25,655 bases of DNA from a virus. Position numbers and translations under genes: made by a program. The stretch spans positions 1 to 25,655 of IMG/VR virus record IMGVR_UViG_3300036719_001933; one strand, written 5' to 3'. The notes below the pieces were generated by a model. The model saw only the letters and a list, made by a program, of their open reading frames with translations, ran no database searches and was not told where the DNA came from. This document shows, piece by piece, positions 3,666-25,655 of the stretch (position 1 is its first letter; the number at the start of each line of letters is the position of its first letter).

Positions 3666-6461
3666 ATGGCTGACGCCCCGGCCCCTGTGGCCGTCCCGAC
3701 CCTGCGCGAGCGCGTAGGGCTCGCCTTGAAGGCGCTGCGCGGGGACATCACCGCGCCCGACGCATCCCGCGCCGTCATCCCGCTGACGTACCCGAATTTC
3801 CCCGGTTTGACCGGCACGACCGGCCAGCCGCAGAACGGGCTCGCCAGCGGCACGCCGCAGATGTCGCTGGTCCGCACGGCCAACCCGCAAGAGTACAAGC
3901 CCGAGGGCGCGTCGATCCGCGTCGAGGGGTTCAGCAAGCACCCGGTCGTCCATGCGTGTATGCGCGTGATCGCCGACACGGTGGCGTCGGTGCCGCTTAT
4001 CGTGCTGCGCGCGCGGGGTGACTTTGAATCGCGCGTGCCCGAGGCGCACCCGCTCCAGCGGCTGCTGGACTACCCCGGCCCACGGTTCACGGCCCGCACC
4101 ATGCGCGCGCGGCTGGCGGTCGACTTCCTAGGCTACGGCAACGCCATGCTGGAGATGGACCGCGGCCCGTCCGGCGTGGGCTTGCCGCGGCGACTTGGGT
4201 CTATCAACCCGGAGTCGCTTCAGTCGGTGTGGGTAGACACGGACGGCGACCCGCGGCGGTACGACTACGCCAACTGGAGCGGGATCATCGTGCAGCGGGA
4301 CGTGGCGGACATCATCCACGTCCGCGACCTGGAGATGCCGCGTCCGTTCACCCCCGACGCGTTCGGTTTCCCCCGCGGGGCCACGGCGCTGGCGTCCATC
4401 GCGGCCGACAACGAGGCCACGAAGTACGTCCGCCAGGTCGTGACCAACGACGGCACCCCGACCTTCGCCGTGCTGTTGGCCGACGAGGCTACGCAGGATG
4501 ACGCCACGGCCATGCAAGACCGCTACCGGGCCCGCGTGGTGGACCGCGGCAAGCGTGGCACCCCCGCCTTCTTCGGAGCCGTAAAGGACATCAAGCCCCT
4601 TGGCTTTACGCTGTCGGACCTAGAGTTCCCCGACCTGCGCCGGGTGTCCCGCGAGGACATTTGCGCGGCGTTCGGCGTGGACCCGCGGATGATCGGGATC
4701 GCGAGCGCCACTAGTGACGCTGGGCTGTCGGGCGCACAGTACGTCGAGGCGCGCGCGCGGCTGGTGCAGCACACCATTGAGCCCATGCTGGCCGCGATTG
4801 AGGACGAGTTGAACCATTGGCTCGCCCCCGAGTTTGGGGACGTGTGGATCAGTTACGACCACGACATGCTGCGCGAGCTGGTCGAGGACGACAGCGCCAC
4901 CAGCACGCGCGTCCGGGCCGAATTCCGCGACGGGCTGCGGACGTGGGAGGAGTCGCGCCGTGCGCTGCGGCTGTCCCCCATCCCTGAGCCCACCGACACC
5001 ATCCTCATTAGCGCCGGTGGCACGCTCACGCCCGCCGCGGTGGCCGTCATCGACCCGCGCATGGTGGCCGATCAAGCGCCCGCGCAGGACGACGAGGTTC
5101 CGGCCGGTGCGCCCACGGGTGCGCCTGCCGACGCCGCCTCAACTCTTGAGGCGCCCACGAACGGCGGCGGACTGGCGATCAACTTGAATGGCGCGCAGAT
5201 CGCGGCGGCGAAGGACATCATCCTGGCCGTGGCGGCGGGCCAGCTCCCGCGCGGCAGCGGGATCGCGATGCTGCAAATTCTGTTTGGCTTGAGCCCCGAG
5301 GAGGCCGAGCGTCTGATCGGGGACGCTGGCACGGGCGCGCCGACACAGCCCAACATCATTGAAGGGGCTGGCACGGTCACCGATACCGTGGCACCAACCT
5401 CCCGGCCTGCGCCGTCGTCTATGGACAGCGAGGACGAACCCGACGACGAGGAAAGCAATGGCCGCTCGGCGCAACGTGTTTCGGCAGGAGGTGCCCCCGT
5501 ACCGGCGCGTGCTGCCGTGGCGGCGGTGGCAGCGATCCAAAAGGCACCGGCTCCCGCTGGTGCGGCGGTACGGAATGCCAGCCCTCTGGTAGACGAGCAA
5601 GGCCGCCCCTACTGGGTGCATCACCCCGAGGTGCTGCGCGCCCCGCTGTACCGCGAGGACGGCGAGCCGAACGAGGACCACATCCTGTACCGCTACTGGA
5701 AGCGGCAGGTGTCGGAGATGGACCGGCAGGAAGCGCCGTTCTATAGCACCGCGCGCGAGCGGTTCCGCGAGGACGCCAAGGGCGTAGCCGCGATGTTCGC
5801 CAAGGCGACCCGCGCGGACGACCCGGTGTTGGACGCCATCGAGCGGCAGGTGCGCGCCAACTACGCCAAGGGCGGGGACTACTACGCCGCGTGGCGGGCC
5901 GCGTATCTGGAGCTGATCGAGCGCATGTACCTCTTCGGCGCGCAGGAGGTGGCGGGCGCGGGGTTCAGCTTCGGGCTCAAGCCCGCCAGCGTGCTGGACG
6001 CCATCGCCAATCGCGCCGACCGGCTGGCCGAGCTGATCGGGGAGACGACCGCCAACCAGGTGACCGCGGCAATCCGGTCCGCCGAGCTGGCCGAGCTAAG
6101 TGTGGCCGAGACGGCGCGGCTGATTCAGGCCAGCGTATACGGCGAGCAGATGACCGACGTGCGGGCCACGCGCATTGCCAAGACCGAGGTGGCGGGGGCA
6201 CAGTCGCAGGGCTCATGGGATCAAGCCAAGGCCGAAGGCGACCTGTTCCGCGCGAAGCAGTGGCTGGCTTTCGAGGACAGCAAGACTCGCCCCACGCACG
6301 CCGCGGCAGGGGCACAGCCGCCCATCGGCATGGATGACGCGTTCGGCAACGGCTTGCTCTATCCGCTGGACCCACGCGGCCCCGCGGGCGAGGTCATCAA
6401 CTGCCGCTGCACGTTGGCCTATTACACCGAAACCGCCGAGGAGGCGCAGGGCGTCCTATGA
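3666..6461 (+). CDS. Portal protein fused to Mu gpF-like minor head protein
   Basis: One uninterrupted 931-residue frame. Residues about 80-470 form an HK97-family portal. Recognisable parts are HACMRVIADTVASVPLIVL near 95-115, the LLDYPGPRFTARTMRARL segment, and SREDICAAFGVDPRMIGI near 330-350. Residues about 470-660 are an Ala/Pro/Gly-rich, low-complexity linker. Residues about 675-925 resemble the Mu gpF (phage head morphogenesis) family: RIAKTEVAGAQ near 836, a TRPTHAA segment, and the C-terminal GEVINCRCTL with C913 and C915. The portal forms the dodecameric DNA gate at the capsid vertex. MuF proteins are minor head components, usually a separate gene. A 62-base spacer precedes it without a clear Shine-Dalgarno. 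It overlaps the protease gene by 4 bases. Confidence 0.92.
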   Translation: MADAPAPVAVPTLRERVGLALKALRGDITAPDASRAVIPLTYPNFPGLTGTTGQPQNGLASGTPQMSLVRTANPQEYKPEGASIRVEGFSKHPVVHACMRVIADTVASVPLIVLRARGDFESRVPEAHPLQRLLDYPGPRFTARTMRARLAVDFLGYGNAMLEMDRGPSGVGLPRRLGSINPESLQSVWVDTDGDPRRYDYANWSGIIVQRDVADIIHVRDLEMPRPFTPDAFGFPRGATALASIAADNEATKYVRQVVTNDGTPTFAVLLADEATQDDATAMQDRYRARVVDRGKRGTPAFFGAVKDIKPLGFTLSDLEFPDLRRVSREDICAAFGVDPRMIGIASATSDAGLSGAQYVEARARLVQHTIEPMLAAIEDELNHWLAPEFGDVWISYDHDMLRELVEDDSATSTRVRAEFRDGLRTWEESRRALRLSPIPEPTDTILISAGGTLTPAAVAVIDPRMVADQAPAQDDEVPAGAPTGAPADAASTLEAPTNGGGLAINLNGAQIAAAKDIILAVAAGQLPRGSGIAMLQILFGLSPEEAERLIGDAGTGAPTQPNIIEGAGTVTDTVAPTSRPAPSSMDSEDEPDDEESNGRSAQRVSAGGAPVPARAAVAAVAAIQKAPAPAGAAVRNASPLVDEQGRPYWVHHPEVLRAPLYREDGEPNEDHILYRYWKRQVSEMDRQEAPFYSTARERFREDAKGVAAMFAKATRADDPVLDAIERQVRANYAKGGDYYAAWRAAYLELIERMYLFGAQEVAGAGFSFGLKPASVLDAIANRADRLAELIGETTANQVTAAIRSAELAELSVAETARLIQASVYGEQMTDVRATRIAKTEVAGAQSQGSWDQAKAEGDLFRAKQWLAFEDSKTRPTHAAAGAQPPIGMDDAFGNGLLYPLDPRGPAGEVINCRCTLAYYTETAEEAQGVL

Positions 6462-16621: not shown

Positions 16622-17185
16622 ATGACCGCCCCGTTGACCGGCTACACCAGCGCACTCCCCACCGATGTCCTGATGGACTCGGGCATCCTCTACGTCGGCG
16701 CGACCGTGATCGGCGCCACGCTCGGGGGGCTGAAGTTCGACCCCGGCACCGAGTACCGGAACGTCGAGTTCGATGGCAAGCGCAGCCCCGTGCGCGGGCT
16801 GGATCGCAAGTCGGCGGTGATGCCCAAGCTCACCGGCACGCTCATTCAGCTCTCGACTACGAACGTGGCGCAGATCGAGCCGGGTGCCACCGTGGTGGCG
16901 TCGGGCGCGTGGACCGGCTCGACCAGCTACCAGGGCAAGCGCTCTGGCGCGCTGCTGGCGTCGGGCGACTACTTGACCGACGTGCGGGCGGTGTGGCTGC
17001 GCGGGTCTGGGGCGTTCGTGCAGGTGCGCTTCCCCGCCGCGCTGCTGACCAAGTACGACATGACCTCGCAGGACGCCGCCGAAATCGCCATCGCGTTCGA
17101 GATTGAGGCGCGGCTGGATATGAGCGTGTCGGGGGCGAACGTTGGCGACATGAGCTACAGAATTGAGTACCTAGCTACGCCGTGA
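16622..17185 (+). CDS. Major tail tube protein
   Basis: A 187-residue protein. It opens with DSGILYVGATVIGATLGGLKFDPGTEYRNVEFDGKRSPVRGLDRK, the strand-loop pattern of siphovirus tail tube subunits in which an early GGL..D..TE..N.EFDG.R segment contacts neighbours. PKLTGTLIQLST and the closing strands (AEIAIAFEIEARLDMS, SYRIEYLATP) complete the beta-sandwich. Subunits stack as hexameric rings around the tape measure. It has an excellent ribosome binding site and is directly followed by the chaperone genes, the standard order. No extra C-terminal Ig domain is seen. Confidence 0.85.
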   Translation: MTAPLTGYTSALPTDVLMDSGILYVGATVIGATLGGLKFDPGTEYRNVEFDGKRSPVRGLDRKSAVMPKLTGTLIQLSTTNVAQIEPGATVVASGAWTGSTSYQGKRSGALLASGDYLTDVRAVWLRGSGAFVQVRFPAALLTKYDMTSQDAAEIAIAFEIEARLDMSVSGANVGDMSYRIEYLATP

Positions 17186-17544
17186 ACATGACGACCAAGG
17201 TGGTGGATCTTGACGCGCTGGTGAGTGACGCGCGGCTGCCGCGGGTGCGGCTGTTCGGGCGCGAGGTGACCGTGCGGCCCATCTCCGGCGCGGCGGCGCA
17301 CAGGCTGGCCGTGGCGCAGGAGGCGGACCCCACGGGCGTGTCGCTCATGGGGGCGCTGCTGGACGTGATACGGGTAAGCTGCCCGGACCTTAAGCCCGCC
17401 GAGATTGAGGCGCTGTCGGTCGAGCAGATCGGCGCGCTGGTCGGGCTGACGCGGGGCGCGGTGGCCGAGGTGGAGCAGCAGCTGGCGAGCCAGGACGCCA
17501 AGCAGGACGAGCGGAGCGGAGCGGAGCCAGCGGCGGGAAACTGA
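17182..17544 (+). CDS. Tail assembly chaperone, short form (lambda gpG-like)
   Basis: A 120-residue protein from GTG 17182 (GTGA overlap with the tail tube gene); ATG 17188 is an alternative start. The N-terminal half has a beta segment (RVRLFGREVTVRPISGAAAHRLAV) common to siphovirus chaperones that start by describing a tail-binding domain. The middle is helical (PAEIEALSVEQIGALVG) and the C-terminal 30 residues are polar and acidic (EVEQQLASQDAKQDERSGAE). The last two codons, GGA AAC, are part of a slippery heptamer and the TGA follows at once. The protein is expected to coat the tape measure before tube polymerisation. Family similarity is modest. The call rests on position between tube and tape measure, on size, and on the frameshift signal. 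Confidence 0.85.
   Translation: MNMTTKVVDLDALVSDARLPRVRLFGREVTVRPISGAAAHRLAVAQEADPTGVSLMGALLDVIRVSCPDLKPAEIEALSVEQIGALVGLTRGAVAEVEQQLASQDAKQDERSGAEPAAGN
17535..17541 (+). promoter_or_regulatory. Slippery heptamer G GGA AAC for -1 ribosomal frameshifting
   Basis: In the frame of the 17182 gene the codons are GCG GGA AAC TGA, so the heptamer has the X XXY YYZ pattern in the correct phase and touches the stop codon. After a -1 slip, reading continues as GGG AAA CTG ATC into an open frame ending at 17918. Lambda uses the close relative GGGAAAG at the same place in its G-T gene pair. Confidence 0.9.
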
Positions 17545-17918
17545 TCGCGGGCACCGGGGCGGCGGTCCCGGTGCCGCGCTCAGTCTCGCAATATGTGCAG
17601 CGGGTGGTCGTGCAAGTCGCGCGCAAGACGGGGCGGCCGGTGCGGGAGGTGGCGGGGGAATCGTTCGCGCTCACGCTGTGGACGTGGGGCGAGATCATGG
17701 CGATGGACCGGGAGGCGACGGTGGAGCGCATGGGGGAACGAACGGACCTGGCGGGCCTCGTCGCCGTGGCATTTCACGAGCCGAGCAAGCTCCAGCACGC
17801 CGAGATGCGATATCTCAAAGCGGCGGGGCGGCTCTCGCCCATGATCGACGCGGCCAAGGCGCGGGCGCTGGCGCTGGTCGAGCAGCACAAGGGGCTGGCC
17901 GTGGTCGGGGAGGGCTGA
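17541..17918 (+). CDS. Tail assembly chaperone T-domain, expressed as a -1 frameshift fusion (gpG-T-like)
   Basis: This frame is -1 relative to the 17182 gene and is open well upstream, to at least 17463, so it overlaps the whole end of that gene. Read through the slip at 17535-17541, the fusion spans 17182-17918 and is about 245 residues. The T part runs LIAGTGAAVPVPRSVSQYVQ, then a basic ARKTGRPVREVAGESFALTL, a W-x-W pair in LWTWGEIMAM, and helical segments to the end (AAKARALALVEQHKGLAVV). A GTG at 17571 could start a free 115-residue protein, but it lies in the stem-loop and has no ribosome binding site, so I consider it unlikely. In lambda, the T domain of the fusion recruits the tail tube protein to the tape measure. 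The ratio of the two forms is set by the frameshift. Confidence 0.85.
   Translation: MIAGTGAAVPVPRSVSQYVQRVVVQVARKTGRPVREVAGESFALTLWTWGEIMAMDREATVERMGERTDLAGLVAVAFHEPSKLQHAEMRYLKAAGRLSPMIDAAKARALALVEQHKGLAVVGEG
17550..17575 (+). promoter_or_regulatory. Frameshift-stimulating stem-loop
   Basis: Bases 17550-17558 (GGCACCGGG) pair perfectly with 17567-17575 (CCCGGTGCC): a 9-bp, almost all G-C stem with an 8-base loop. It starts 8 bases after the slippery heptamer, within the spacing usual for bacterial -1 frameshift stimulators. Confidence 0.85.
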
Positions 17919-20239: not shown

Positions 20240-23200
20240 GTGCCTAGCTTCGCCATAGAGTACCGGCTGCGGATCAAGACCCCCAGCAACCAGTTTGTCC
20301 CGGACCCGATCACGGACGCGCTGGTCATCACCAGCACGCCAAGCGGCACCAACCCGTACATCGCGGCCCCGCCCAGCGGCGACGGGCAGGAGCTGGACCC
20401 GGTCACCGGCTCGGTGCGGACGGGTTCGTATGTGGTCGAGGTGGTGGACGCCATTACCGGCGCTGATCTCACGGGCACGGTGCGCGTGGTCACCAGCGCG
20501 CTGGAGGACGCGCAGCTTCGGCAGCAGCTCCTGTCGCGCCGGGCGTTCGTCGAGACGCGCACGGACGGGGGCGCATGGGCCACGCTGACGGCGGGCTACG
20601 TCACCAGCATCCGTCTGGTGTCCCCGGCGCGCTACGCTATCACGGTGGGCGATACACGGCGGATTGAAGCGGTGCCGGTGCTGGCCTACGAGTCGCGGGT
20701 GACCCCGACCAACATCCGCGGCTGCCTTATCGGTGGCCCGGTGACGGCAGATTTTGGACCGGCCCGGTTCCGCGGCGGGTGGGAGTACGAGGTGACCGGC
20801 GTGTCGGGGCGGGTGGTGTCGGTGGCATTCCGTCGCGGTTATTCGCCCATCGCGGGCTCGGCAGCCGTCACGGATTTCGGGAAGCTGTACCGCACCGACG
20901 TGGTGGACGCCATCAACAGCTTGGGTTCCACGTTCGCGCCTGTGCCCATCGGGCCGTTTGGCGGCGGGCGCGTGGTGCTGGACCTGACGCTGTACATCGG
21001 GACCACGCCGACGAACGCGCAGCCGACTGATGTGCAGATCGCGCTGCCGGGGTGGTTTGGTCCGAACCTGGACAGCTACGGGCTGGCGTCGCTGGACCTG
21101 TACTGGCCGACGACGAGCCCCGTGCCGATCCCGAGCAGCGGGGCGCGGCTGTGGATCAGCATGACGCAGACCACGATTTCCCCGCTGTGCCCGCTGTTGG
21201 TGGACGCGCACCCGGTGGACATCGTGCTGTCGGTGTGGAACCAGAACGCGATCTATTACGACCCGTCGGCGGCATGGATCAGCACGATCCGCCAGCTGAT
21301 CGGCGCGGACGTGCGGTTGGCGCTGCGCTTGACCGAGACGCCGACGATTGAGGAGTTTCTGCGGAACGCGGTGTACGGGCCGTTTGGCATCGCCCCGCGG
21401 ACCAATGCGCTCGGCCAGCAAGAGTTGGTAGCTTCGCGCATCCGTCAAAGCACGCTGCCCACTTTGACGATAGCCGCGGCGGATCTGACTAGCGCCGACC
21501 CGGTGGTGTTTGACATCGACGAGAAGTCGGCGGTGGCGTCGGTCACGATTACCCAGCAGGTCATTAAAAAGTACGACAGCGGCCCGGTGTTGAGCCCGGA
21601 AACGCCCGTGGACGGTCTGGCTGTGGTGCCGGTCACGCAGCGCATCAGCAACCCGTTTGCGTTTGTGTACGGCGCGCGGGATGTGGCGTATGACGTGCCG
21701 GGAATGATCCACAACGCCGCCAGCTTTGAGGCGACCGTCACCGAGTTCCTTCAGGTTGTTGGGCGCGAGACCATCGACCGATTCCAAGCGGGCGCGGCCA
21801 GCGCCGAGGTGGCGGTGCTGGCGAGTGCGGCCAGCGCTGCCGCGCAGGTGGGCGACGAGGTGTACCTGAACGCCCCGCACTACCCGAACCAAAATTACCG
21901 GATCGGGGAAAGCACGGTCGGCGCGCGCATCATGCAGGTAATCCGCCGCACCGAGACGCCCACGGGGCCGTTGCTTCGGCTGCTGGACTCTGGCGGGGCC
22001 GCGCAGCCGGTGAGCCCTGCGGCCACCATCAGCATCGCGCAGAACACCAACCTGCCGACGCTGGTAGCGGCCTACACCATCACCAACGCCGCGACGATCA
22101 ACAGCGGCGGGGTACTGTCGGTCGAGGTCGAGTGGGCGACGGGGGCTGTAGCCCCGACCGGCAACGGGCAGACGCACACCATCTACCCGCCGACCGAGGT
22201 GCCGACCGGCGCCGTGGACCTGCCCGCCGTGACCGGCTCTGGCGTGACGGTGTACGCGCGCGCACGGACGCTCCAGCTTGGCCGCAGGCCGTCCGCATGG
22301 ACGGCGTGGGTGTCGGTGGCGCTCAACGCCCAGCCGACGCCGGGTGCCATCACGGTCAGCGGGCAGACGACGACCAGCGCCGACATTGCCTGGACGAACA
22401 CCAGCAGCGCCTACCCCATCGCCATCTTTGCCTATCAAGGCACCGCGGCCCCGGCCAACTGGGCACCGTACCAGCTCAACGCCATCGAGGCGGGCTCAAC
22501 CTTTACGACCATCCGCAGCCTGACCGGGCCCAGCGTGGCGTGGGTGGTGGCGCTGGCCTACGAGACGCCGGTCGGGCTGGGGCCGTTTCGCACGGCCACG
22601 CTGACCACGGGCAGCAGCACCGCGGCCAGCACGCGGCCCGCAGGGCTTCAGGTGGTCACCACGATTGACGATGCGCAGCTCCCGCAGGGAATCGCGCTCG
22701 GGCTTTGGGCTAACGACCCGACCCTCGACCTGATTGTCGAGCGCAGCACCACGGGCGGCGGCGTGGGCTTTGCCGAGATCGCGCGCGTTAACGGCAGCAG
22801 CGAGACGTATGCCGACCTGCTGCCGCGCGACGGCACGACCTACCATTACCGGCTGCGGCACGCGCTGGGGGGCTACACCACCAGCACGTTCACGGGCGAG
22901 GTGAGCGGGGCCGCGCGCGGCATCCCGTCGCCCGTCATCCGGCCCGGTCCGGTGACGCCCACGGTGCGGGTAAATGTGACCGAGACTAGCACCACGGCGA
23001 CCCTCACGCTGTTGGTGCTGGACCCGCAGGGGCGCACCTCGCAAGTCCGATTCCGGCATGATCCGGGCACGGGCACGTTTGGCGCGTGGACGGTGGTGTC
23101 CCCCACCATCGTGTCGGCGGACGAGGACAGCTACGCCTACAGCGCCACCATCCCGGTGACGGGCTTTCTGCGCGTCGAGTACGAGGTCAAGGGCTTCGAC

Positions 23201-24823
23201 GCGGACGGCGTGGACCGCGTGTTGGCGGGCGGCATTGAGTCGTTCGACCGCAATGCCACGGCGGATCTGGTGTCGGCGGTCGGCTCGTTCGGCATCGCGG
23301 GCAACTTTATCTTGGCAATTGCCGCCGACACCGATACGGCGTCGATCAAGTACGTGTTGAGTACGACCAGCCAGCCCAACCTCGCCACGGTGCAGGCGGC
23401 GTCCCCGGTCAACGGCCGCAACGTTGTGCAGACGTTCGCGGGGCCATACGACCTGGGCACGGTGCTGTACGTTTCCATCCTGGCGTACACCGGCGCGGGT
23501 GGCACGGGCACCGAGTCAGGGCTGTTTGAGTACCAGTACCAGCGCATGGCTGGGGCGGTGCAATGCCTCGCCGCGGAGGTAGGCAGCACGCCGACCACCA
23601 GCACCGTGACGGCCAATGCGTTGTTCGCCAACGGCACCACCATCAGCGGCGGCGAGGTGCGGCTGGCGGCGTTGTACGGACCCACCTCCGGCGCGGCTAC
23701 CATTGCCAGCGGCGCGCCGGTGTTGACATGGACGGCAGCCCCTGGCGTCTGGGTGTTCAACCGTGGCGCGCCGTTGTCCGGCCCGACGCAAGCACGGTTT
23801 GAGGCACGGCGCAGCGCAGCCAACGTCAACGAAACCGATCAGGACACGCTGGAAATCGTCGAGGAAGGGCGGGACACCAAGCCGCTGATCTCGCGCGCGC
23901 GGGTCATCGCCAGCACGGCGACGGACCTCACAGTCCGCGTGGCGGTGGTGACGCCCAGCCCCTACGCCGCGGCGTCTACCACGATCAGCTATAGCACCAC
24001 CGGCCTTGGCACGGTGTCGCCCACCAGCCCGCAGACCATTACGTCGGGCGTGGCCCCGCTCCAGATTCCCGAGCCGGTCGGCACCTACGTCGACTTTACG
24101 GTGCCGCGTCCCGCGTTCAATGCCGCGGCGGGGGGCATCACGTTCACGGCCACGGCGTCGGGCTTTGCGCCTGACACGGACCCCATTACGATCCCGCCGC
24201 AGGACAAGGACTTTACGCCGCCGACGTTCAGCCCCACGTTGACGCTGACCAGCACCACCGGCCAGGTAAGCTGGCCCGCGGTGGCGGCGGGTGTCACGGT
24301 CGAGGGGTCCAACGACAACGTGACGTTCACCACGGCGACCGGCACCGTGTACCCGACCGCGGCAACGGGCCGCAACGCATTTGGTGGATCGACCAAATTC
24401 CTGTTCGTGCGGGCCTATAACGCGGCGGGCGTCTACACCCCCACGACCGCGTTCGCGGTGCCGCCGCAAGACCCCACGGTCCCCGCCATTACGCGGTTCA
24501 CGTCGGCCAGCCTGACGCTGCGCTACGCCACGGACCCGACGTATCCGAACCAGTTTGAGCTGAATTACACGATCAGCAATTTCCCAAGCGGCGGCACCAT
24601 GAACGCCGTAATTTTGCAGGACGGCGTGGACGTGGGCGTGCGCCCTACGGGTGGCCCGCCGGGTACGCCATCGCAGACGCAGGGGTTCTGGTCGTCGCCG
24701 GTCGCACTCAACGCCACGGGCTCGCCCGCGATTGAGTGGTCGATTTATCTTGAGGTGCTGGACAGCACGGGCAACAACGTCGAAGCCACCTCCAAGACCT
24801 TGACCGCGACGAGCTACGTCTGA
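20240..24823 (+). CDS. Tail tip/baseplate hub protein with multiple Ig/fibronectin-like domains (central fibre-like)
   Basis: A 1527-residue protein from GTG 20240. Residues 1 to about 590 look like a tail-hub region: a beta-rich N-terminus with TGSVRTGSYVVEVVDAITG, the middle RQLIGADVRLALRLTETPTI and GPFGIAPRTNALGQQELVAS, and the domain end GDEVYLNAPHYPNQNYRIGE with VIRRTETPTGPLLRLLDSGG. From about 604 to the end come repeated beta-sandwich units of roughly 90-110 residues. Examples are PGAITVSGQTTTSADIAWTN near 697, RPAGLQVVTTIDDAQLPQGI near 798, and VRVNVTETSTTATLTLLVLD near 910. These resemble fibronectin type III or Ig folds, as in lambda gpJ-type host-specificity proteins. The protein forms the tail tip and probably contacts the cell surface. 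The next gene overlaps its stop by 3 bases. Confidence 0.8.
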   Translation: MPSFAIEYRLRIKTPSNQFVPDPITDALVITSTPSGTNPYIAAPPSGDGQELDPVTGSVRTGSYVVEVVDAITGADLTGTVRVVTSALEDAQLRQQLLSRRAFVETRTDGGAWATLTAGYVTSIRLVSPARYAITVGDTRRIEAVPVLAYESRVTPTNIRGCLIGGPVTADFGPARFRGGWEYEVTGVSGRVVSVAFRRGYSPIAGSAAVTDFGKLYRTDVVDAINSLGSTFAPVPIGPFGGGRVVLDLTLYIGTTPTNAQPTDVQIALPGWFGPNLDSYGLASLDLYWPTTSPVPIPSSGARLWISMTQTTISPLCPLLVDAHPVDIVLSVWNQNAIYYDPSAAWISTIRQLIGADVRLALRLTETPTIEEFLRNAVYGPFGIAPRTNALGQQELVASRIRQSTLPTLTIAAADLTSADPVVFDIDEKSAVASVTITQQVIKKYDSGPVLSPETPVDGLAVVPVTQRISNPFAFVYGARDVAYDVPGMIHNAASFEATVTEFLQVVGRETIDRFQAGAASAEVAVLASAASAAAQVGDEVYLNAPHYPNQNYRIGESTVGARIMQVIRRTETPTGPLLRLLDSGGAAQPVSPAATISIAQNTNLPTLVAAYTITNAATINSGGVLSVEVEWATGAVAPTGNGQTHTIYPPTEVPTGAVDLPAVTGSGVTVYARARTLQLGRRPSAWTAWVSVALNAQPTPGAITVSGQTTTSADIAWTNTSSAYPIAIFAYQGTAAPANWAPYQLNAIEAGSTFTTIRSLTGPSVAWVVALAYETPVGLGPFRTATLTTGSSTAASTRPAGLQVVTTIDDAQLPQGIALGLWANDPTLDLIVERSTTGGGVGFAEIARVNGSSETYADLLPRDGTTYHYRLRHALGGYTTSTFTGEVSGAARGIPSPVIRPGPVTPTVRVNVTETSTTATLTLLVLDPQGRTSQVRFRHDPGTGTFGAWTVVSPTIVSADEDSYAYSATIPVTGFLRVEYEVKGFDADGVDRVLAGGIESFDRNATADLVSAVGSFGIAGNFILAIAADTDTASIKYVLSTTSQPNLATVQAASPVNGRNVVQTFAGPYDLGTVLYVSILAYTGAGGTGTESGLFEYQYQRMAGAVQCLAAEVGSTPTTSTVTANALFANGTTISGGEVRLAALYGPTSGAATIASGAPVLTWTAAPGVWVFNRGAPLSGPTQARFEARRSAANVNETDQDTLEIVEEGRDTKPLISRARVIASTATDLTVRVAVVTPSPYAAASTTISYSTTGLGTVSPTSPQTITSGVAPLQIPEPVGTYVDFTVPRPAFNAAAGGITFTATASGFAPDTDPITIPPQDKDFTPPTFSPTLTLTSTTGQVSWPAVAAGVTVEGSNDNVTFTTATGTVYPTAATGRNAFGGSTKFLFVRAYNAAGVYTPTTAFAVPPQDPTVPAITRFTSASLTLRYATDPTYPNQFELNYTISNFPSGGTMNAVILQDGVDVGVRPTGGPPGTPSQTQGFWSSPVALNATGSPAIEWSIYLEVLDSTGNNVEATSKTLTATSYV

Positions 24824-25655
24824 TGCAGCTCCATGCCTTAGGTATCCCGCATACTGTGACGCGGCAAGACTTTAGCCATTGCGCGTTCACGCAAAAGGTG
24901 AGGCGTCTCGCCCCCATGCTGTTCCCGCATGGCTTGCGCGTCATCCACTACGGCGTGGCAGGCAGCGAGTCGGGGGCCGCGGATGACGTGGTGCTGATGG
25001 AGCAGGACGAACACCAGGCGCTGCTGGGCCACGCCTACCACGCGGTCGGGAAAGGGTTCTATGGGGCCGACGCGGTGGACAACAGCCCGGTCTACCGGCA
25101 ATGGAACCTGTACGCGCGCGAGGAGCTGAAGGCGCGCGTCCAGCCCGGAGACTTGATCCTGCTTCCGTTTGGCCACGCGCACGCCGCCGCGATCCGCGGC
25201 CTGCCGGTGCTGGCGGCGGGCGCGGGGGCGATTGAATCGGGGATCGGCTATTACGACTGCCTGCTGCCGTGGCGCATTTACGAGTCGTACGCCGTGCGGC
25301 ACGGCGTCATGGCAAAGGAGGGGCGGCACGGCGTGCAGCTCGAGAGCCCGCGCTTGGAGTTCGTGGCCCCCAATTATTACGACGTGGACGAGTGGCCGCG
25401 CGGGCGCGGGAAAGGCGACTACATCGCCTTCCTTGGGCGGCTGACGGAGGGCAAGGGCGTCGCCGTGGTGCTGGAGCTGGCGCGCCGCCGCCCGGACCTG
25501 CGCTTCCGCCTGGCGGGGCAGGGCGACCCGGACGTGTTTGGCCCCGCGCCGGACAACGTGGAATTTGTCGGCAGCCTGAACACCGAGCGCGCCGAGTTCC
25601 TCGGCAACGCTACGGCGATCATCGCGCCCAGCCGCTACGCGGAGCCGTTCTGCGG
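24823..25655 (+). CDS. Glycosyltransferase, GT-B/GT4-like (3' end outside window)
   Basis: An open frame from ATG 24823 (TGATG overlap) to the window edge, 277 codons, with no stop. The N-terminal domain includes HCAFTQKVRRLAPMLFPHGL and RVIHYGVAGSES, a Rossmann-like start I associate with phage and environmental glycosyltransferases. The second Rossmann domain starts at YIAFLGRLTEGKGVAVVLELARR, then RFRLAGQGD, VEFVGSLNTERAEFLGNA and IIAPSRYAEPFC. These are the classic GT4 elements: a GR.t..KG donor site and a PSRY.EPFG-like segment carrying the first glutamate of the E-x7-E motif. It would transfer a sugar from a nucleotide donor. The acceptor is unknown. Being translationally coupled to the tail-tip gene suggests modification of tail proteins or host surface glycans (inference). 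The first 80 bases are less GC-rich than the gene upstream. Confidence 0.88.
   Translation, partial: MQLHALGIPHTVTRQDFSHCAFTQKVRRLAPMLFPHGLRVIHYGVAGSESGAADDVVLMEQDEHQALLGHAYHAVGKGFYGADAVDNSPVYRQWNLYAREELKARVQPGDLILLPFGHAHAAAIRGLPVLAAGAGAIESGIGYYDCLLPWRIYESYAVRHGVMAKEGRHGVQLESPRLEFVAPNYYDVDEWPRGRGKGDYIAFLGRLTEGKGVAVVLELARRRPDLRFRLAGQGDPDVFGPAPDNVEFVGSLNTERAEFLGNATAIIAPSRYAEPFC

Follow-up and report, generated by a model that had tools for sequence, protein, structure and literature searches.

The interval between the tube and tape measure genes is the usual place of the chaperone frameshift in tailed phages, and the slippery heptamer of the lambda G/G-T system is G_GGA_AAG. Beyond lambda, the chaperone gene of Burkholderia phage KL1 (gp18/gp19) has GGGAAAC immediately before TGA (PMC3483164), phiCbK-type Caulobacter phages use AAAAAAC and Colossus uses GGGAAAC (PMC3556154), and a review gives G_GGA_AAC for haloarchaeal HCTV-1, A_AAA_AAC for HCTV-2 and G_GGA_AAG for HCTV-5 (PMC5009743).

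The locus considered here lies in a virus record from IMG/VR, 25,655 bases long (hereafter the window, meaning the whole stretch of DNA analysed). It has the gene order, -1 direction and heptamer class of lambda G/G-T and, like it, is predicted to give two products from one start (PMC5009743); unlike in lambda, the heptamer ends in AAC and is directly followed by the stop codon, and no sequence match to the lambda proteins is detectable. In KL1, unlike in the window, one more gene separates the chaperone genes from the tape measure. The phiCbK-like phages, HCTV-1 and HCTV-2, whose hosts and genomes are unrelated, carry in their pre-tape-measure chaperone genes the heptamers of the window's family, AAAAAAC or GGGAAAC (PMC3556154, PMC5009743). 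In Cronusvirus RcCronus and Dinoroseobacter phage R4C, GGGAAACTGA stands in the same phase, flanked by tail and tape measure genes; the RcCronus locus is annotated as a joined tail assembly chaperone. Cronusvirus phages share with the window this phase and gene position and also a related tape measure protein (the tape measure of the window matches their tape measure genes in a tblastn search), but their G and T proteins have no similarity to those of the window detectable by tblastn.

The heptamer ending in AAC and the abutting stop, both singled out as special by the original prediction, had thus both been described before, in tail chaperone genes of other phages (PMC3483164, PMC3556154, PMC5009743). 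Its statement that AAC is weaker than AAG in E. coli agrees with the review, where A_AAA_AAG is far shiftier than A_AAA_AAC in that species (PMC5009743); E. coli may not be the host here. The arrangement of the site is known from other phages, and what is left as modestly interesting is the conservation of the abutting stop, through which release factors may influence the ratio of the two products.

Two overlapping frames and a candidate slippery site

Genes in the window are ordered as terminase, portal/head morphogenesis, protease, capsid, adaptor, tail genes, major tail protein, the two frames and tape measure (Table 1). A DNA methyltransferase gene lies at the left end (70-1041; phrog_56, 1.5e-30), and a 931-aa frame at 3666-6461, matching a portal protein over residues 87-478 (phrog_2662) and a head morphogenesis protein over residues 682-923 (phrog_2468), is possibly a portal/head-morphogenesis fusion. 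The tail genes are followed by a 1527-aa protein (20240-24823) without significant Pfam or PHROGs match and by a glycosyltransferase group 1 gene (24823-25653; Pfam PF00534, 1.6e-6) truncated by the contig end. No tRNA genes were found within the window.

Table 1. Coordinates of the chaperone locus and its flanking genes in the window
Feature	Position	Strand	Evidence
Major tail (tube) protein gene, upstream	16622..17185	+	phrog_885 major tail protein, E 2.7e-14
0-frame tail chaperone, G-like, 118-120 aa	17182..17544	+	start GTG 17182 or ATG 17188; conserved in relatives; phrog_893; AlphaFold model
Slippery heptamer G_GGA_AAC	17535..17541	+	sequence; in-phase heptamer in 52/52 assessable relatives
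-1 frame, T-like extension, 125 aa	17541..17918	+	frame open from 17409; alignment of relatives
0-frame stop TGA	17542..17544	+	abuts heptamer; abutting in 19/21 non-redundant relatives
Putative stimulatory hairpin	17546..17578	+	folding; relatives; 9-bp core 17550-17558/17567-17575
Tape measure protein gene, 625 aa	17922..19799	+	phrog_27166 tail length tape measure protein, E 7.2e-37

The heptamer GGGAAAC is read as G_GGA_AAC in the frame of the G-like gene and is followed without a gap by the stop of that frame, while the -1 frame is open across it, from 17409 to a stop at 17916-17918. The in-phase heptamer, the stop immediately after it and a -1 frame open from upstream of the heptamer to 17918 had been claimed in the original prediction and were confirmed directly in the window, and we agree with its further claim that a gene caller would report two proteins here, an annotation that the present reading corrects. 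Only about 0.02 in-phase heptamers of the X_XXY_YYZ class are expected by chance in the 17409-17541 overlap (estimated from the 11 present in 25.7 kb when all phases are counted), and the heptamer marks the point where third-position G+C passes from the 0 to the -1 frame.

The locus has the features of the lambda G/GT type: 1) overlapping frames, the second at -1, between tube and tape measure genes; 2) an in-phase X_XXY_YYZ heptamer near the end of the first frame; 3) a downstream RNA structure, which is frequent and not obligatory in this type; 4) a second frame without a start of its own. We therefore consider a lambda G/GT-type frameshift in this uncultivated phage family well supported, the slipping and its rate being what we infer from the sequences, and put the probability that a programmed -1 ribosomal frameshift yields two tail assembly chaperones from one start at about 0.95. 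Most ribosomes would stop at TGA 17542 and release the short, G-like product. The others, a minority, would be held on G_GGA_AAC by the hairpin beyond it and slip back one base, with tRNA-Gly re-pairing on GGG and tRNA-Asn on AAA; they would continue in the -1 frame to 17918, giving a G-T fusion of about 245 aa. The predicted junction peptide is ...AAGNLIAGTGAAV.... The original prediction had allowed K or N between AAG and LIAGTG; N should predominate (...AAGN|LIAGTG... after a tandem slip), because tRNA-Asn has already read AAC, and K would be only a minor alternative. By analogy with lambda, G would coat the tape measure protein, and recruiting tube subunits would be the task of the T part.

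The main competing account treats the heptamer as incidental and the two frames as separate proteins: the T frame would have its own start, GTG 17571 or one further on, used through re-initiation or translational coupling once the TGA has been read. Coupled genes are generally common in phages, and this GTG, before which the -1 frame has no ATG, GTG or TTG, is just 26 bases past the TGA; however, it lies within the hairpin stem, no ribosome-binding site is seen by eye ahead of it, and conserved residue V9 of the T domain precedes it. The window and most relatives are without a usable T-frame start before the conserved part, some relatives have a -1-frame start further upstream, and the position of the first start differs among relatives, in 52 of which a chance heptamer would not have stayed in phase. 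Separate translation thus seems very unlikely.

All 14 of 14 members of the G domain match phrog_893 (best 2.6e-9), a family without assigned function. For G, AlphaFold gave a confident model (pLDDT 85.8, pTM 0.74), with the HK97 tail assembly chaperone 2ob9 as its best PDB match, a weak one (E 0.19, probability 0.77). In BFVD, many of the proteins matched by this model carry the name tail assembly chaperone, several at probability 0.9-1.0 but with E values of 0.006 or higher. Taken together, these structural matches are supportive but weak. None of the Pfam Phage_TAC families was matched above its curated cut-off, with only Phage_TAC_7 appearing, in 1/14 members (E 0.013), and a PDB sequence search gave nothing meaningful. 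The T domain, whose structure model is poor, matched no known families, and no relatives of it were found outside this phage family.

Conservation of the junction and its hairpin

To compare this junction with those of relatives, we searched IMG/VR with the T frame (32 contigs) and with an alignment (53 contigs), leaving out one contig (L067) that ends before the junction. Each of the 52 assessable contigs with the downstream (T) domain carries one, and only one, X_XXY_YYZ heptamer in phase at the junction. Clustering at 90% T-domain identity leaves 21 non-redundant junctions, with AAAAAAC in 12, GGGAAAC in 6, GGGAAAA in 2 and GGGAAAG in 1; the letters of the heptamer vary while its class and phase do not, a pattern characteristic of slippery sites. 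This comparison provides the strongest evidence for the frameshift. In the farthest relatives the G and T domains share about 50% identity with their counterparts in the window, and the heptamer, the abutting stop and the hairpin persist in relatives down to about this level of protein identity. The G and T domains had no match in GTDB genomes or INPHARED, and a tape-measure query found nothing in IMG/VR.

This conservation bears on two further explanations. One continuous frame could have been split by gene decay or by an indel arising in sequencing or assembly, the window being a single-contig metagenomic sequence and GC-rich hairpins being able to produce errors; the two-frame layout recurs, with different bases, in dozens of contigs, many of them from different metagenome samples, which refutes this reading and leaves it a negligible probability. 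Transcriptional slippage could produce the fusion in place of ribosomal frameshifting, as the site contains, in many relatives, 6 to 7 consecutive A (AAAAAAC), a run that can cause polymerase slippage. Yet the window and its near relatives keep the same layout with only GGGAAAC and no long homopolymer, and ribosomal slippage accords with both the hairpin and the X_XXY_YYZ phase rule, so that a transcriptional origin is highly improbable.

In the window, GGCACCGGG pairs with CCCGGTGCC in a perfect, GC-rich 9-bp core stem with an 8-base loop, after an 8-base spacer, exactly as the original prediction had described. The minimum-energy fold lengthens the stem to 14 bp, with one bulged G and a 4-base loop, and has 3 further outer pairs that take in the stop codon. 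This fold (-31.3 kcal/mol) has a z of -4.25 against dinucleotide shuffles, 0/200 of which were equally good. Among codon shuffles preserving the T protein, the window hairpin ranks 8 of 300 and those of near relatives 0 of 300. Pooled over the 21 junctions, hairpin energy is -494 against -379 +/- 16 in codon shuffles (0/300), a figure that overstates significance and is no true probability because the junctions are related. The junction sequences sort into three stem registers; in that of the window (7 sequences) the core 8-bp stem is formed in 7/7, and 4 of 10 examined pairs are altered on both sides, as compensatory changes. An Rfam search of the window gave no match.

Most relatives retain a hairpin, L031 being a clear exception with no convincing one. 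Relatives keeping both frames without the heptamer and stem, named in advance as evidence against the frameshift, were thus not found: 52/52 keep the heptamer and most a hairpin. The original reading of a tail-chaperone frameshift is supported both by this retention of its elements and by the position of the frames between phrog_885 and phrog_27166 matches, and an uncultivated phage family is added to the known cases. We also considered as a stimulator a Shine-Dalgarno-like GGAG about 8 bases before the heptamer; it is present in most relatives, yet not stronger than in protein-preserving codon shuffles, and was rejected.

The stop codon abutting the heptamer

In 19 of the 21 non-redundant junctions the 0-frame stop abuts the heptamer (TGA in 10, TAA in 5, TAG in 4), the exceptions being L007 (+3) and L010 (+24). 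The first -1 codon in the 19 abutting cases is CTG, CTA, ATA or GTA, so that the residue varies while the stop is constant. CTA makes up 6/16 at this codon, compared with a background of 22/233 of CTA+CTG (binomial 0.002, relatedness ignored). These sequence patterns suggest selection for a stop directly after the heptamer, which might either fix the end of G or involve a release factor.

Natural stops directly after a slippery heptamer occur in Rous sarcoma and barley yellow dwarf viruses, which resemble the window in this respect but are eukaryotic RNA viruses with other products (PMC4373837). In a bacterial system, a stop put after the HIV-1 heptamer reduced frameshifting, and extra RF2 abolished it (PMC4373837). 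Such a stop could have been selected here as part of the switch itself, with the release factor competing with the slip while the stop is in the A site; the G:GT ratio would then depend on RF1/RF2 activity or growth state of the host, as might the yield of complete tails. We hold this proposal to be speculative and rather unlikely.

Across the family, one and the same junction occurs naturally with four different heptamers, with each of the three stop codons and in three stem registers. Such a series would lend itself to experiments on what heptamer, intercodon and stem each contribute to the rate of frameshifting. The family also includes a single relative (L010:3977-4010) whose 0-frame stop is 24 bases past the heptamer, which gives G a short extra tail.
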